A DNA stretch of 63,803 nucleotides from Planctomycetota bacterium (GTDB lineage Bacteria > Planctomycetota > Phycisphaerae > Sedimentisphaerales > Anaerohalosphaeraceae): NCBI GenBank assembly GCA_013349435.1, contig DUZQ01000008.1, positions 1-63,803 of the forward strand. Direction: 5' to 3'. Shown here piece by piece: positions 37,153 through 56,525 of this stretch (its first letter is position 1; every line of letters starts with the position of its first letter). A model generated the notes under the pieces. The model searched no databases. It was not told the DNA's origin and saw only the letters and a list, made by a program, of their open reading frames with translations. Position numbers and translations under genes: made by a program.

Positions 37153-38223
37153 TCAGCGTCCGGCTTGGAGGTGTTTTACTACGCCGTTTTCAATTACCAG
37201 CCGGTTCTCACAAAACAGGCGAATCGCCTCAGTATAAGCGATGCATTCCTGCTCGAAGACCCTGGCTGCCAGCGAATCGGTATCGTCGTCATCCTTTACC
37301 ACGCAACTACGCTGTACGACAATAGGCCCCACGTCATACTCATTCGTGCAGAAATGGACGGTACAACCGCTGATTTTGCATCCTGCTTTAAGCACCGCCT
37401 CGTGGACGTGACGGCCCCACATACCCTGTCCGCCGAAGCTCGGCAACAGTGCCGGGTGGATGTTCATAACCCGGTTCTCGTATTTTTCCGGTATGTGCCA
37501 CAGACAGAGCCAACCGGCCTGTATAACCAAATCCACCTCGGCCTCTCTTAGTTCCCTGGAAATTTCATCACTGAACGACTCAATATCATCGAAGTCTTTT
37601 CTGCGTATGATCCTTGGTTCAAGGCCGATGTTCCTGGCCCGCTCGATGCCCATGGTGGCTGTGCGGGAGCTTATAACAAGTACGATTTTAGCGTTAAGCC
37701 GGTCTGCTTCGATTTGGTTCTGTATATTGACCATTGTCCTGCCGCCGCCGCTTATGAGTACTCCCAGCCGGGTCGGCTTGCCTTTTTGCCGAGGTCGGGG
37801 CTTTTCGAGTGTAATGTTTTTTTGCAGATCCATTGCACGATTAACCAGTTCATCAACCTGTTTGTTTTGCTCTCTGGGTATGTGTGTTACCTTCCAGCTT
37901 GAAAATCCTGCCAACAATCCTGTACATTCAGCGAACAGCTCTTTAAGTTTTTGGTTTTTAACCCTGTAGCGGCCGTTAATTTGCCTGACTATAAGCTCAC
38001 TGTCGCTGAAAACATCAATCCTTTTTGCCCGGGCTTGTTTTGCCGCAGACAACGCTATTAACAGGCCTGTGTATTCTGCCACGTTGTTGGTTGTATCGCC
38101 CAAAAAGGACGCTTTACCTTCGATTATGTTCCCCTCCGTGTCTGCTAAAATGAAAGCCGCTGCTGCAGGCCCCGGATTACCCCGGCTTCCTCCGTCGGTG
38201 TGTATGATTATATGCTCGTGCAA
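37153..38223 (-). CDS. Fusion of RNase HI-like domain and GAR formyltransferase (PurN)
   Basis: The 356 residues hold two domains. Residues 1 to about 133 are RNase HI-like: HTDGGSRGNPG, NVAEYTGLLIAL, FSDSELIVRQI and a final aspartate in VDELVNRAMD, so all acidic metal ligands are visible. From about 150 the PurN fold follows: LGVLISGGGRTMVNI, MNIHPALLPSF with catalytic Asn/His, and a final DVGPIV aspartate. PurN makes formyl-GAR in purine synthesis. The start is TTG at 38223 with GGGGAGAG seven bases upstream, three bases after the zinc-ribbon gene stop. A PAP2-like linker of about 15 residues joins the domains. Confidence 0.9.
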   Translation of the reverse strand: MHEHIIIHTDGGSRGNPGPAAAAFILADTEGNIIEGKASFLGDTTNNVAEYTGLLIALSAAKQARAKRIDVFSDSELIVRQINGRYRVKNQKLKELFAECTGLLAGFSSWKVTHIPREQNKQVDELVNRAMDLQKNITLEKPRPRQKGKPTRLGVLISGGGRTMVNIQNQIEADRLNAKIVLVISSRTATMGIERARNIGLEPRIIRRKDFDDIESFSDEISRELREAEVDLVIQAGWLCLWHIPEKYENRVMNIHPALLPSFGGQGMWGRHVHEAVLKAGCKISGCTVHFCTNEYDVGPIVVQRSCVVKDDDDTDSLAARVFEQECIAYTEAIRLFCENRLVIENGVVKHLQAGR

Positions 38224-39165: not shown

Positions 39166-41910
39166 TTATGTTTTTTGCTTATGTTGAGCTTTTTGGATTT
39201 TAGCCCATGTGTCGCGGAGTGTTACGGTCCGATTGAATATAAGTCTGTCGGCTGTACTGTCAGGGTCAACACAGAAATAACCGAGTCTCTCAAACTGGTA
39301 TCTGCTTAGCGGCTCGGCGTTTGCCTGCGAAGGTTCAATCCGGCAGTTATTTATGACTTTAAGTGAGTTTTGGTCCAGATTTGAGGTAAAATCGGCATCA
39401 TTGGCAACATCATCCGGGTTTTCCTTAGTGAAAAGATGATCATAAAGGCGTACCTGGGCGGAAAGTGAATGAGGCGCTGACACCCAGTGCAGGGTGGATT
39501 TTACCTTTCGACCGTCGGGGGCATCTCCGCCTCGTGTGGCGGGGTCGTAGTTGCAGTGCAGCTCGATGATTTCGCCATCGGGGTTTTTGACCGCCTCTTT
39601 ACAGGTTACAAAATATGCATATCGCAGCCTTACTTCCCGGCCTGGTGCCAGACGGTAGAACTTTTTCGGCGGCTCTTCCATAAAATCGTCCCGCTCAATG
39701 TAAAGCTCGCGCGAGAACGGCACGAGCCTTGTGCCGGCTGCGGGGTCTTCGGGGTTGTTAATTGCCTCTAATTGTTCGACCTTGTCTTGGGGGTAGTTGT
39801 CGATTACCACTTTGAGCGGTCTCAGGACCGCCATCACCCGCGGCGAGTTCCTGTTGAGATCCTGACGGACACAGTGCTCCAGTAGAGCGATATCTACCGT
39901 GCTGTTGAATTTGTTGACACCGATGAGCCTGCAAAATTCGCGGATAGCCGCCGGCGAATAGCCGCGTCTGCGCATGCCGGATATGGTCGGCATTCTGGGG
40001 TCGTCCCATCCGTTGACCAGGCCCCGCTGGACTAATTGCAGAAGCTTTCGCTTGCTCATTACGGTATATGACAGGTTCAGCCGGGCGAACTCGATTTGCC
40101 GGGGGTGGTGAACGCCTAACTGGTCAAGGAACCAGTCATATAAAGGCCGGTGATTCTCGAATTCGAGTGTGCATATCGAATGTGTGATGCCTTCGACCGA
40201 ATCTTCCAGACCGTGCGCCCAGTCGTACATCGGATATATACACCATTTGTCGCCGGTGCGATGATGGCTTGCGTGCAAAATCCTGTACATCACCGGGTCT
40301 CGCATATTCAGATTTGCAGAGGCCATGTCGATTTTGGCCCGCAGCGTTCGTGAGCCGTCGGGAAATTCACCCGCCCTCATACGCTCAAACAAATCAAGAT
40401 TTTCTTCTATACTGCGGTCGCGATAAGGGCTGTTTTTACCCTGTTCGGTGAGCGTGCCGCGATATTGTCTTATCTGCTCGCCGGTCAGGTCGCAAACGTA
40501 GGCTTTGCCGGCTTTTATTAACCGGACGGCGTATTCATACATCTGCTCGAAGTAATCGGAGGCATAGTACAGATGCTCGCCCCAGTCCCAGCCAAGCCAG
40601 CGGACATCAGCCATAATGGACTCGACATATTCGAGTTCTTCTTTGCACGGATTGGTGTCGTCGAATCGCAGGTGGCACCTGCCGTCTTTGTTTTCAGCGG
40701 CGATGCTGAAATTAAGACAGATGCTTTTTGCATGACCGATATGCAGATAGCCGTTAGGCTCCGGCGGAAACCGGGTTATAACCCGCCCGCCCCATTTACC
40801 GCTCCTGTTGTCCTCGGCCACAATCGCCCGAATAAAGTCAAGCCGTTCTTCACGGTCGGAATTCTTTTTGTTGTAATTTCCGTTCATATTTGTTTTTGCG
40901 ATTCTATGAATCCTTAACTCATTTGTCAATTGTTCTATACCGTCTTGAAAAGTTTTGGGAATACAGCATATAGTAAAATGGTCAGTAGCACCTGTCCAGT
41001 AATTGGCAATTCTTGCCTTTATTTGATCGCACTGTGAAGGGTCAATTATAATCAACTTCTTCGTACTTTGCAGCCTTCTGTTTAGGAAACTCGCCAGAAT
41101 CAGCCACAAAGACATATCTTCTCTCCTGAGTCCGCAACCACCGATTACGAGGTTCTTTGCATCTCTTGCAATTGCAATGAGTTTATTAACCATATTTGCC
41201 ATCTCAAGACGCTGAAATTTTACAAAGCTCGGGGCAATGATATATTGCCTGACTTCAGTTTGACCACCCCCGTACCCAAAGATTCTACTTTGTCCAGACC
41301 TCGGAAATATACTTTCGTTGACAACCAAGGCGATGCACCTCTGCTCCAATTTTGGGCCATTCTTGTCAAACGGAGGCGCTTCATAAAAATTTTCTGATCC
41401 ATGAATCTTGTAGATAAGAATGTTATTGGCATTGGTTGGCGAACCAAGCAGTATGTTCTCGACGTTAGCATAACCCCTATTTGGCGACCAGACTTCATAG
41501 TAGTCCAGCAATCCCTCGAGAAAGCAATCGTAGTTTAGGTTGATAATTGCATCATATGGCCGAAATAATTTTACAAAATCTTCAACCCAAGTGTTGTTGG
41601 CTATAATTTCTTTTTTAAACCGGAAATTGCCAAAAAATTCTGCGATTTGCCGCTCAATCTCTTTTCGGTCTTGCTGTAAAGCGGTTTGTTTATGGTTAGG
41701 CAGAAGTATATCTAAGTCTAAACGCGTCAATAGAATTTCGATGTCATTGGTTTTATATTCTCTGTAGTATTTGTTTATTGTGGTGTGTGAGCTGCCTGTA
41801 CATAATTTCGATAGTAGGTCCTTGTTCAGCGGCGCAATGGGGAAGACAGCTTTGGTAAAACCAGCGCCCAGAAGGAATAGGTTATTAGATTTTGATTCAG
41901 AATCCTTCAA
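39166..41910 (-). CDS. glnS: SIR2-like domain fused in frame to glutaminyl-tRNA synthetase
   Basis: One frame of 914 residues contains two complete parts. Residues 1 to about 340 form a SIR2-like (NAD-binding) domain with [14 protein letters not shown] (GAGxS-type, 15-19), IINLNYD (124-128) and YKIHGSENF (H170). From Met 342 (ATG 40887) a full-length GlnRS follows: [18 protein letters not shown] (class I HIGH), RFDDTNP, and VMSKRKLL (KMSKS variant), with the anticodon-binding half. The TTG start at 41910 has GAGG six bases before it. No stop separates the parts. Whether cells make the fusion, GlnRS alone or both is open; see the internal promoter. Standalone GlnRS normally begins near Met 342. 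Confidence 0.85.
40901..40929 (-). promoter_or_regulatory. Near-consensus promoter inside the SIR2 end, just before the GlnRS start
   Basis: On the minus strand TTGACA (40929-40924), a 17-base spacer and TAGAAT (40906-40901) lie within codons 328-337 of the fused frame. The ATG of the GlnRS part is 13 bases beyond the -10, which would give an almost leaderless transcript. There is no Shine-Dalgarno sequence before that ATG. This may be the original glnS promoter, now overlapped by the SIR2 coding end. Confidence 0.55.
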
Positions 41911-41979
41911 CCTTTACCTCGATCCTTCCATATCCAAATATACTGGTTAAGCTACCTTGAATAAGTTTTTAGACAATGT

Positions 41980-42100
41980 TTGAGGCTTTGCCTCAAGCTA
42001 CTTTATTTCTGGATTCCCGCCTCCGCGGGAATGACATTTTCCTGGATTGCGGGTCCACCCTTCGCAGAAGGCTACGGATGGCAGGCAAGCCCGGAATGAC
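41980..42100. repeat. Dispersed palindromic repeats between SIR2-GlnRS and MTase genes
   Basis: TTGAGGC-TTT-GCCTCAA (41980-41996) is a hairpin. It is followed by two copies of the CTGGATTCC/GGAATGAC type: CTGGATTCCCGCC-TCC-GCGGGAATGAC (42009-42035) and a longer copy ending AAGCCCGGAATGAC (42051-42100). Related text is found at 56369-56433, so this is a dispersed family in this genome. Confidence 0.65.
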
Positions 42101-42119
42101 AAATACAAGAAGTTAGTTT

Positions 42120-43220
42120 CTATGTTCCTATTATAAGAGCTTCTTTTGAGTTGCCATTTTTTGAAAGAACATATTTATATCGTCCGAATGTTTCTATGCG
42201 AACGGCGGACTTATATCTTTTAAGAAGAGTTGACAGTTCATTTATTGAAGGGACGCCGTCGCTTCGATAAGAAACGACAATAATGCTCTTCGAGAATTTG
42301 GAGAAAAGCTCGTCGAACGCCTTGTGAACGGTTTTTTTATCGGTCCAGGGGTTGGGGTTCCGCAACATACGGCGGTGTTTAGATTCCCAATCGATAAGTT
42401 CCTTCCATCGGTCATAGAAGCACAGGCCTTCAAGAAAATGGTAGAAGTCGGCATAATCCACCGCGACCCCCTGTCTGGAAATATAGGGTGTATCGATATA
42501 AACAAGGTCATATTCTTCATCTATTTCCATCGCGTCCTTATTTGATGCCCTGCATGGAAAGATACCCGGAGCTACCGCCTGATTGGCCTCATGCGCAAAA
42601 TACTTAAACCATTCGGGAAAAGGTCTGTCCCATGATGCCTTATTCCCGAAACTCCGCTTGACATCGGCAAGGCGCACGTAAAGATTCTTGCGGTGAAAAA
42701 GATTGTAGGGCCTCTTAACAATGCAAGATTGAGCAAGCGCAAAAAAGGACAAAGCAAAAAGAAACCTGTCGTCTAAATGCCGTGTATTGGTAATTGTTTG
42801 GTCTAACCAGGCGTTTTCTTCATCTGTGAAGTAGATGCCGCCGAATGTGTCCTGGATGAAGGTGGGATAGTCGATGTCTTTATGCCTTTTCAGAACCCAT
42901 GAGATGTCTTTATCTTCTAAAAATACATTATCGTTTTCAACAAGAGCCAGCCCGAAGTAATAGTTGAATCTAAGGATGTCATTGTATGTAACTTGTTTGC
43001 CTTCTTGCTTTAACCGGCTGCTTACTACACCCGTGCCTCCAAATGCATCAAGGCAGGTACAAAAGTCGAGGCCCGCCAGATGACTCCATATCCAGTCTGT
43101 TAATTTTGCTTTACTTCCCTGGTATCTCGTTGACGGGAAGCGTGCTGTCACTTCCGGGGGGAACAGACTATTTCTTGTTAATCGGTTCATAATGACAGGA
43201 TATTCCAAGTCGGCTCTCAT
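42120..43220 (-). CDS. D12-class DNA adenine N6-methyltransferase
   Basis: This 366-residue protein resembles Dam-type D12 enzymes. The N-terminal RYQGSKAKLTDWIW precedes the SAM motif LDAFGGTGVVSSRLK. The catalytic motif is YIDTPYIS, a DTPY form of DPPY, and TYNDILRFNYYFG is typical of the family. No restriction gene sits beside it; the SIR2-GlnRS gene follows 209 bases downstream on the same strand. It may be a solitary methyltransferase or the modification part of a defence islet with the SIR2 domain. The start may be 43190 (MNRLTRN) instead of 43220. Confidence 0.88.
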   Translation of the reverse strand: MRADLEYPVIMNRLTRNSLFPPEVTARFPSTRYQGSKAKLTDWIWSHLAGLDFCTCLDAFGGTGVVSSRLKQEGKQVTYNDILRFNYYFGLALVENDNVFLEDKDISWVLKRHKDIDYPTFIQDTFGGIYFTDEENAWLDQTITNTRHLDDRFLFALSFFALAQSCIVKRPYNLFHRKNLYVRLADVKRSFGNKASWDRPFPEWFKYFAHEANQAVAPGIFPCRASNKDAMEIDEEYDLVYIDTPYISRQGVAVDYADFYHFLEGLCFYDRWKELIDWESKHRRMLRNPNPWTDKKTVHKAFDELFSKFSKSIIVVSYRSDGVPSINELSTLLKRYKSAVRIETFGRYKYVLSKNGNSKEALIIGT

Positions 43221-43380: not shown

Positions 43381-45015
43381 GTGGTTCAAGAGCCGGTTGT
43401 AACGCGTTTTGCACCTTCGCCGACTGGTTACCTGCATATAGGCGGGGCCAGGACCGCTCTGTTCAACTGGCTTTTGGCTCGAAAAACGGGCGGTAAGTTC
43501 CTGCTACGAATTGAGGATACCGACCAGAAGCGCAACACCCCCGCGGCGGCAAGGCAGGTGATGGATGATTTGCGTTGGCTGGGCATCGGGTGGGATGAAG
43601 GTCCGGAGGTCGGCGGGCCGAATGGACCTTATTTCCAGTCCCAACGAAAAGAAATCTACGATAAGTACATAAAACAGCTTATAAATGATAAGAAGGCGTA
43701 CTATTGCTTCGACACACCCGACCAATTGCAGCAGATGCGCGAAAAGGCCCAGGCCGAGAAGAAAAATCTGATATATCCACGCCCGGATAAATTTCCCGAC
43801 GATAAGGATGTTGCAAAGGCCCGCGCTCAGGGCAAACCCGTAACGGTCCGCTTTGCCATGCCGACTACGGGGGATATTATCGTCAGCGATGTAGTGCGCG
43901 GCGAGGTTATCTTTGCGGCTCGTGAAATCGGCGATTTTATTATACAAAAGAGCGACGGCTTGCCTACATATCATTTCGCCTGCGTGGTTGATGATGAGTT
44001 GATGGGCGTTACACACGTCATCCGCGGCCAGGAGCACCTGATGAATACGCCCGGCCATCAGGCGCTTCAGGATGCCCTGGGCTTTCGCAGTCCGGTATAT
44101 GCACATATGTCGGTAACCGTGAGCGACAGCGGCGGCAAACTCTCGAAGCGCGAACGGCCAAAGGCCTTGAGACAGGCGATTAAGGCGCTGGGCGATTTAG
44201 ATACTCAAAAGCTTGCCGGGGCCGCAAATATTTCGGTTGCAGAGGTCGAGGAGTTTGTTAAAGGTAAAAACACACCTGATATGTCCGCGGTTGACGCAAT
44301 GGCTGAGTACCTTGGTATCCGGTTGCCGGAGATAAACGTGGTTGATTTCTTCAAAAGCGGCTATCTGCCCGAGGCGGTAGTCAATTTCCTCGCGTTTTTG
44401 GGCTGGAATCCCGGCGACGAGCGTGAAATTATGCGGCTCGACGAGTTGATTGATGCATTTGATTTGGGGCGTCTGACGAAATCGAACAGCCTTTTCGACC
44501 GTCAAAAACTTATAGCCTTCAATACCGAACATATAAAAATGCTTCCTGATGACAGGCTGCTGGGCCGGTTCAGGGATTATCTCAAGGCGATTGGCTCACC
44601 CGCGGCCGGCGGCGATGATAAACTTCTTGCGAGGCTGATAAAGATAAACGCCGGGGCCAGGACCTTAGCGGATATTGAGAAAAAGTGCAGATTTGTTTTT
44701 ATCGACAACGAAGATGTTCAGTATGATGAAAAAGCCGTCAAAAAAGTCTTGCTCAAACATGACGGATTGGCTATCCTGCGTGCCGTCGGAGAAAGACTTG
44801 CCGGGCTGGAAGTGATAACACCGGAGACTGTCGAAAAGCTGCTTCGGGATCTAGCAGGTGAAAGGCAGGTGGGTCTCGGCAAAGTCGCTCAGCCTTTACG
44901 TGTGTCAATTTGCGGCACGACGGTAAGTCCGCCGATTTTCGATTCGGTCGATGTGCTTGGAATACAAAATACTTTGCAGAGAATAAAAAATACGTTGAAA
45001 AAATTCGGAACCTGA
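43381..45015 (+). CDS. gltX: Glutamyl-tRNA synthetase
   Basis: This class I enzyme of 544 residues charges tRNA-Glu. TRFAPSPTGYLHIGGART carries the HIGH motif and GGKLSKRERP the KMSKS motif (KLSKR). An insertion of about 60 residues after KLSKR (GDLDTQKLAGAANISVAEVE...) precedes the anticodon-binding half. The GTG start is set by CAGGAG seven bases upstream. The presence of glnS as a separate gene suggests direct Gln-tRNA charging is available, so GltX may be Glu-specific, but its discrimination cannot be judged from sequence alone. Confidence 0.96.
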   Translation: MVQEPVVTRFAPSPTGYLHIGGARTALFNWLLARKTGGKFLLRIEDTDQKRNTPAAARQVMDDLRWLGIGWDEGPEVGGPNGPYFQSQRKEIYDKYIKQLINDKKAYYCFDTPDQLQQMREKAQAEKKNLIYPRPDKFPDDKDVAKARAQGKPVTVRFAMPTTGDIIVSDVVRGEVIFAAREIGDFIIQKSDGLPTYHFACVVDDELMGVTHVIRGQEHLMNTPGHQALQDALGFRSPVYAHMSVTVSDSGGKLSKRERPKALRQAIKALGDLDTQKLAGAANISVAEVEEFVKGKNTPDMSAVDAMAEYLGIRLPEINVVDFFKSGYLPEAVVNFLAFLGWNPGDEREIMRLDELIDAFDLGRLTKSNSLFDRQKLIAFNTEHIKMLPDDRLLGRFRDYLKAIGSPAAGGDDKLLARLIKINAGARTLADIEKKCRFVFIDNEDVQYDEKAVKKVLLKHDGLAILRAVGERLAGLEVITPETVEKLLRDLAGERQVGLGKVAQPLRVSICGTTVSPPIFDSVDVLGIQNTLQRIKNTLKKFGT

Positions 45016-56278: not shown

Positions 56279-56525
56279 GTAGAAAACCTTGTGGATGTCA
56301 TTCTGAGCAAAGATAGCCTTTAGCCCTGAGCGTAGTCGAAGGGGAAGAATCTCGATCCTTTGGCTTTTGTCATTCCAGCGGAAGCTGGAATCCAGATGTT
56401 GAAGTACTGGATTCCGGGTCAAGCCCGGAATGAAAAATTATACGCACGAGATTCTTCACCCCGCGTGTCCCAATATCTCTGGGATAAATCAGGATTCAGA
56501 ATAACAATTTTTAGAAGTTTTCTAC
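56279..56525. repeat. Nested palindromic MITE-like element
   Basis: GTAGAAAAC (56279-56287) and GTTTTCTAC (56517-56525) are perfect terminal inverted repeats. Internal inverted arms are GAAGAATCTCG (56344-56354) and CGAGATTCTTC (56447-56457). Between those arms lies another element, GTCATTCCAGCGGAAGCTGG... to ...CAAGCCCGGAATGA (56369-56433), related to the repeat at 42009-42100. No transposase. The outer element is about 247 bp, between the efflux operon and the fucosidase gene. Confidence 0.7.

Follow-up and report, generated by a model that had tools for sequence, protein, structure and literature searches.

In the 63,803 nucleotides of Planctomycetota DNA analysed here (contig DUZQ01000008.1 of assembly GCA_013349435.1, in the following called the window), a SIR2-like domain precedes a glutaminyl-tRNA synthetase (GlnRS) in one and the same reading frame. 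This raises the question of whether the two are made as one protein, and of how a SIR2 gene came to lie directly in front of glnS.

The joined frame and its junction

The frame comprises 914 codons on the minus strand (39166-41910), starts with TTG and contains no internal stop codon; the plus strand across these positions is rich in stops. The ORF call and the GlnRS domain matches confirm the continuous frame with an intact GlnRS that the initial annotation had reported, at the correct coordinates. Residues 1-341 (40888-41910, minus strand) form a predicted SIR2-like NADase domain, assigned by alignment with relatives and by fold. The native glnS of 573 amino acids (39166-40887, minus strand) begins with an ATG at 40887, which is Met342 of the joined frame, as judged from the GlnRS matches and from the start position in relatives. 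A Shine-Dalgarno-like GAGGT (41916-41920, minus strand, read from the sequence) is located 6-10 nt ahead of the SIR2 TTG.

We considered a chance open frame as the source of the SIR2 part and rejected it. The probability that 341 open codons arise by chance, given the local base composition, is about 8e-11, so the SIR2 frame is taken as coding. The join itself, for which a single stop has to be missing, is less remarkable than the open SIR2 frame. At least 13 in-frame open codons precede the glnS start in 36 of the 110 relatives with a usable start.

At the junction (40885-40930, minus strand) the SIR2 tail continues into the ATG of glnS without an in-frame stop. In the predicted structure the last SIR2 helix ends at residue 331 and is followed by a tail of about 10 residues, which together with the GlnRS N-terminus gives a linker of about 20 residues. 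Stops are present in both other frames near the junction, and the join thus hinges on the exact base count: one base of difference would separate SIR2 and glnS.

The fusion rests on one assembly. The join might be a one-base assembly error or a strain-level variant, the majority genome having a 4-nt overlap or abutting genes and no fusion, which we hold to be unlikely. Such an error would fit with the stops in both other frames, one of which is a TGA overlapping the glnS ATG as in genome G476 described below, and with a run of five A within the junction; furthermore, the assembly consists of 139 contigs, of which the window is one, and no other genome was seen joined. However, 88% of the window lies in ORFs of at least 100 amino acids, and gltX and pfkB alongside are full length, which does not suggest an assembly rich in errors. 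Short reads also seldom miscall a run of five A, which would speak against an error if such reads were used here.

Properties of the SIR2 and GlnRS parts

The three motifs named in the initial annotation are all present (minus strand). GAGFT, the nucleotide-binding motif, occupies residues 15-19 (41854-41868) in sequence and alignment, NLNYD ends with D128, and KIHGS contains H170. The catalytic pocket residues N126-Y127-D128 (41527-41535) and H170 (41401-41403) correspond by motif to N133-Y134-D135 and H171 of DSR2. N126, Y127 and H170 were found in all six aligned SIR2 sequences and D128 in five of them (E in G483). According to an excerpt of PMC11263360, the pocket that DSR2, ThsA and SIR2-HerA have in common is made up of Asn, Tyr, Asp and His. 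Among alignment columns that otherwise do not vary, the window SIR2 keeps 48 of 51, and the other intact or partial SIR2 sequences keep between 31 of 31 and 48 of 59. These columns together with the retained pocket give no sign of decay in the window SIR2.

PF13289 (SIR2_2, cut-off 24.5 bits) scored 21.9 bits in the window and 24.0 in G483, and G476 passes with 34.9. The SIR2 assignment is carried by the alignment with relatives and by the predicted fold. An AlphaFold2 model of the SIR2 part, built from five sequences, is of middling confidence (pLDDT 66.7, pTM 0.72). All eight PDB matches obtained with Foldseek at E <=0.001 were antiphage SIR2 chains, six of them SIR2-HerA/PsSIR2 and the others SPARSA and KomB (TM 0.42-0.52, rmsd 8-16); the next PDB matches were ThsA, DSR2 and Avs5 (E 2.7e-3 to 1e-2). 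PADLOC gave weak matches alone for the SIR2 part, the best being PDC-S25 at 27 bits. Fold and pocket support the view that the window SIR2 is an NADase of the antiphage SIR2 type, its activity being predicted from these two features.

The GlnRS part matches PF00749, PF03950 and PF20974, and the HIGH and VMSKR motifs were read. TIGR00440 matched residues 377-904 with 754.7 bits over 524 of 524 model positions, and the GlnRS family models together cover residues 352-912. By these domain matches both the class I catalytic and the anticodon-binding regions are complete, and the identity to GlnRS from genomes of the order is about 68-84%. Met342 is positioned 48 codons before HIGHA, and the starts in 29 relatives lie 42-60 codons before it.

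A sigma-70-like promoter sequence, TTGACA-17-TAGAAT (40901-40929, minus strand; a consensus match only, 11 of 12 positions), lies within the last SIR2 codons, 13 nt from the native glnS ATG. When the SIR2 gene was shuffled 500 times, 1.4% of the shuffled sequences contained any site this good, and the whole window contains five such sites on both strands. Within 120 nt of glnS, an 11/12 site was detected in 9 of 112 relatives and no 9/12 site in 68 of 112, and the other four SIR2 carriers belong to these 68. The 2.8 kb around the junction hold 11 weaker promoter-like sites vs 5.2 expected (sd 2.6). Because of the near-consensus promoter before the native ATG, a separate GlnRS is probably made from this ATG, too, on its own short-leader transcript.

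The genome of the window contains one GlnRS match besides gltX, and gatB and asnS are also present. GatCAB together with a relaxed GluRS could make Gln-tRNA. With gatB and asnS present, neither the essentiality of GlnRS nor a lethal glnS loss as a barrier to SIR2 loss is established. The initial annotation had proposed an abortive-infection device that is addictive because it cannot be lost without glnS. This is possible but not favoured, given that no other joined genome was seen, that gatB and asnS are present and that the promoter suggests a separate GlnRS.

Genes in front of glnS in related genomes

A profile search with SIR2 in 161 genomes of the order gave matches in 17, of which four were strong (window, G476, G483 and G503). 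G519 contains two short SIR2 pieces of 50 and 44 bits, has a large internal deletion and scores near the best unrelated match (G030, 45 bits); it was counted as a carrier because of the place of these pieces and their identities of 48% and 88%. In all five genomes SIR2 lies directly before glnS on the same strand; the pairing of SIR2 with glnS is genuine and recurs. The 12 weaker SIR2-type matches (up to 45 bits) do not lie before glnS as far as seen: ten of these genomes have glnS on another contig or about 0.6 Mb away (G470), and glnS was not found in G497 and G039.

With the 914-residue protein as query, 58 of 59 relatives were matched, none starting before query residue 300, so none of the 58 covers the SIR2 part. 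The SIR2 part alone matched 4 of 392 genomes of the phylum, window included; its best match outside the window was a separate 309-aa gene in G070 (31% identity), a genome without a glnS match. G070, which is one of the rows that make up the profile, was also the only strong SIR2 profile match besides the window in the 392 phylum genomes (next G297, 77 bits), and in 397 genomes of the class nothing above 56 bits was found besides the window. The window protein alone gave no match in a first scan of genome contigs, and a scan with a two-row alignment gave four SIR2 relatives. A 47% identical SIR2 overlapping glnS by 4 nt is encoded on contig DQCG01000686.1 of Phycisphaerales bacterium UBA9295, which by length and sequence corresponds to G476. 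A 45% identical SIR2 of a deltaproteobacterial MAG (L072) is cut by the contig end and holds a stop. As glnS was not found in the genome of this MAG, the SIR2 subfamily is not tied to glnS everywhere. The congener G001 gave neither a glnS nor a SIR2 match. A plasmid or phage home for SIR2 was considered and discarded, with no match at E 1e-3 in 72,556 plasmid and 50,697 phage records and nothing in viral contigs.

The junction takes several forms. SIR2 of G476 (348 codons) ends with a TGA inside ATGA, and in G483 (336 codons) a TAA abuts the ATG, in frame with glnS. In G519 a TGA abuts the glnS ATG in the same frame and SIR2 is broken by the internal deletion; in G503 the overlap with glnS is 17 nt and the broken SIR2 contains stops near its N-terminus. 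A separate SIR2 is hence intact in two other carriers and broken in two, and the stop is missing in the window only. The joined form would be a small change from these existing junctions, which makes its evolution credible and yet leaves the one-base error discussed above a real rival.

None of the four other carriers has a joined SIR2-GlnRS frame, and among the glnS frames listed for the 161 genomes of the order none besides the window exceeds 800 codons. A search for the same architecture in related planctomycetes, suggested in the initial annotation as a check, thereby yielded no second joined genome among those inspected. Long open frames before glnS elsewhere in the phylum, among the stronger GlnRS matches, were rejected as further fusions. 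Eleven of 15 such loci (ten at G+C 0.59-0.76, one at 0.38) were inspected by eye and none is SIR2, and the other four (G089, G321, G076, G381) are absent from the SIR2 profile matches in the 392 phylum genomes. A joined frame of 602 codons in G044 was dismissed, too, its extra residues being an unused frame of a HepT-like gene.

The broken copies in G503 and G519 might suggest that the window SIR2 is a silent remnant as well, unexpressed and with a frame still open because little time has elapsed; a promoter ahead of the native ATG would make glnS independent of SIR2. We regard this as highly improbable, as at about 49-50% identity to the nearest relatives all 341 codons are intact, 48 of 51 conserved columns are kept and a Shine-Dalgarno-like start is present.

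The SIR2 proteins are 40-50% identical in pairs vs 83-91% for the adjoining GlnRS (48% and 91%, respectively, for G476 and G483), and the deltaproteobacterial SIR2 is as close as the SIR2 copies beside glnS. Judged by these identities, either SIR2 would evolve very rapidly, which is conceivable for an immune gene, or it would have been gained more than once at glnS. In a GlnRS tree of 99 rows the window stands on its own branch among family f7 and three f1 genomes. The SIR2 carriers are scattered in this tree, and a single SIR2 origin is thus neither shown nor excluded.

The DNA before glnS was inspected in 122 genomes, namely 121 relatives, four of them with less than 700 bp, and the window. 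Three of the other four carriers have MNT ahead of SIR2, in the order MNT, HepT, SIR2 in G483, MNT then SIR2 in G476 and MNT then broken SIR2 in G503. In 12 further genomes of the 122, MNT and/or HepT-like genes lie before glnS on its strand without SIR2. Eight of these have both (G044, G052, G498, G458, G481, G464, G520, G484), G457 has MNT and part of HepT, in G518 MNT overlaps glnS, G522 retains an MNT piece, and in G495 MNT is found about 0.9 kb ahead of glnS, a PIN-like gene separating the two. G020 carries an MNT-type gene of another kind. Searched with MNT and HepT of the relatives, the window yielded matches of E 0.35 at best. An excerpt of PMC7641770 describes HepT/MntA as a toxin-antitoxin pair: HepT is an RNase to which MntA transfers AMP, and the pair is said to outnumber all other modules of its kind. 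The SIR2 carriers together with the MNT/HepT genes of 12 further genomes make the glnS 5' flank look like a swap site. As the MNT/HepT carriers are related, this count, taken at glnS alone, is not one of independent events.

HepT-like genes (L111 1792-2136; L003 1220-1579; L045; L145; L148) were mapped in the glnS flank. Those of G044, G052, G498, G464 and G520 end 8-28 nt before glnS and those of G481 and G458 122-159 nt before it, each with MNT ahead. The PIN-like gene of G495 (L121 1571-2062; 23.2 bits vs a cut-off of 23.6) is perhaps a further toxin type at this site. Two loci of family f1 (L039 and L055, genomes G029 and G014) have cysteine-synthase-like genes, identified by eye, before glnS.

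Of 121 relatives, 21 have a divergent gltX no more than 460 bp from glnS, an arrangement that represents the cargo-free state. In the window this neighbour of glnS in many relatives lies at 43381-45015 (plus strand), and a D12-class adenine DNA methyltransferase, identified by domain match, lies between it and SIR2 (42120-43220, minus strand). The G+C content of SIR2 and the methyltransferase is 0.40 and 0.44 vs about 0.52 for glnS and gltX. The methyltransferase has SIR2-glnS and gltX, and not a restriction endonuclease, as direct neighbours. No relatives of it were found in viral contigs, and by eye the 3.2 kb before gltX of G001 contain no methyltransferase. The gap between methyltransferase and SIR2 (41911-42119, minus strand) includes a 27-base unit (42009-42035, minus strand) recurring with 3 mismatches at 56369-56395 (plus strand). 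A near-identical 27-base pattern occurs in loci of G029 (L039) and G475 (L164), possibly as a dispersed intergenic repeat. Near SIR2-glnS, a 356-aa frame (37153-38223, minus strand) joins an RNase H domain (3-130) to a formyltransferase (152-334), which is unusual.

Possible origin of the fusion and comparison with known systems

We assume, with a probability of about 0.6, that the glnS flank is a swap site for toxin or defence genes and that the window SIR2 is one such effector whose stop was lost, GlnRS being a passenger. Within the order, the site before glnS would receive MNT together with a HepT-like RNase, with SIR2 or with both, or else other genes. SIR2 in the relatives overlaps or abuts the glnS ATG and is probably co-transcribed and translationally coupled with it. 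In the window lineage the stop between the two would have gone, and a ribosome starting at the SIR2 TTG must then make the 914-residue SIR2-GlnRS, if the assembly is right. GlnRS alone would probably come from the native ATG by means of the promoter in the last SIR2 codons. The role of SIR2 would most likely be an inducible destruction of NAD in infection or stress, with GlnRS as passenger and not as sensor. That SIR2 lies upstream of glnS and lost its stop had been the second proposal of the initial annotation and is the better supported one, but a lone insertion falls short of the finding since the pair recurs in four other genomes as separate genes. Several points speak against the swap site: MNT/HepT modules are very common (excerpt of PMC7641770), the carriers are relatives of one another, a joined frame occurs in a single genome, the window lacks MNT, and the SIR2 model is middling (pLDDT 66.7, rmsd 8-16).

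Alternatively, it might be that glnS is a docking gene for immune effectors which watch the status of GlnRS or tRNA-Gln, and that MNT, HepT-like and SIR2 genes came to be coupled to its start codon time and again for this reason. The window would then be the end state with an NADase wired to the synthetase, and a new MNT-SIR2 toxin-antitoxin pair would be included, in which MNT, which is known to transfer AMP to HepT and thereby silence it, took SIR2 as partner. We consider this quite unlikely. The MNT-SIR2 pairing is testable.

The fusion could also have been selected as such, GlnRS or bound uncharged or damaged tRNA-Gln sensing an attack on translation and switching the NADase, and the join guarding the toxin gene from loss. 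The intact, conserved SIR2 and the short linker would agree with this, as would the recurrent SIR2-glnS and MNT/HepT-glnS neighbourhoods, HepT being an RNase toxin (excerpt of PMC7641770). We nevertheless judge it very unlikely: there is no second joined genome, two of the other four carriers have a broken SIR2, a promoter-like site would serve a separate GlnRS, and gatB and asnS are present. An AlphaFold model of the whole fusion (pLDDT 43) is of such low quality that contacts cannot be read from it.

If produced, the protein would be the first case of an NADase fused to an aminoacyl-tRNA synthetase, as far as the titles and abstract openings listed by searches of the open-licence PMC literature go; none of these names a SIR2-aminoacyl-tRNA synthetase fusion, in line with the initial annotation, which knew of none. 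Even if it is not made, the glnS 5' flank seems to be an unrecognised site that couples toxin-type genes to a core translation gene. The natural series from separate over overlapping to joined genes, with decayed ones beside them, may illustrate how immune effectors and housekeeping genes fuse.

Among known synthetase fusions, GlnRS-YqeY (NF011291) matches the GlnRS part with 880.3 bits at model positions 8-566 of 769. Its YqeY part is absent from the window, whose added domain is N-terminal and unrelated. The HEPN/MNT (HepT/MntA) modules are comparable to the MNT and HepT-like genes before glnS in the relatives, and the GSX10DXD motif quoted in the excerpt of PMC7641770 can be recognised by eye in MNT of G476. 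In G476 and G503 SIR2 occupies the place of HepT, whereas the window has neither MNT nor HepT.

The stand-alone SIR2 of G070 (L033; 309 aa) and of a proteobacterial MAG (L073; about 310 aa) share the motifs of the window SIR2 with 31% and 29% identity, respectively, but unlike the window those loci contain no glnS. The antiphage SIR2 NADases SIR2-HerA, SPARSA, KomB, ThsA, DSR2 and Avs5 match in fold with E values of 4.8e-5 to 9.3e-3 at 9-16% identity, and DSR2, ThsA and SIR2-HerA have the same N-Y-D/H pocket by motif. No partner gene or domain of SIR2-HerA, ThsAB, SPARSA or DSR was found in the ORF or the adjoining genes scanned. Unlike those antiphage systems, the window SIR2 is attached to GlnRS, and in the relatives SIR2 abuts glnS.
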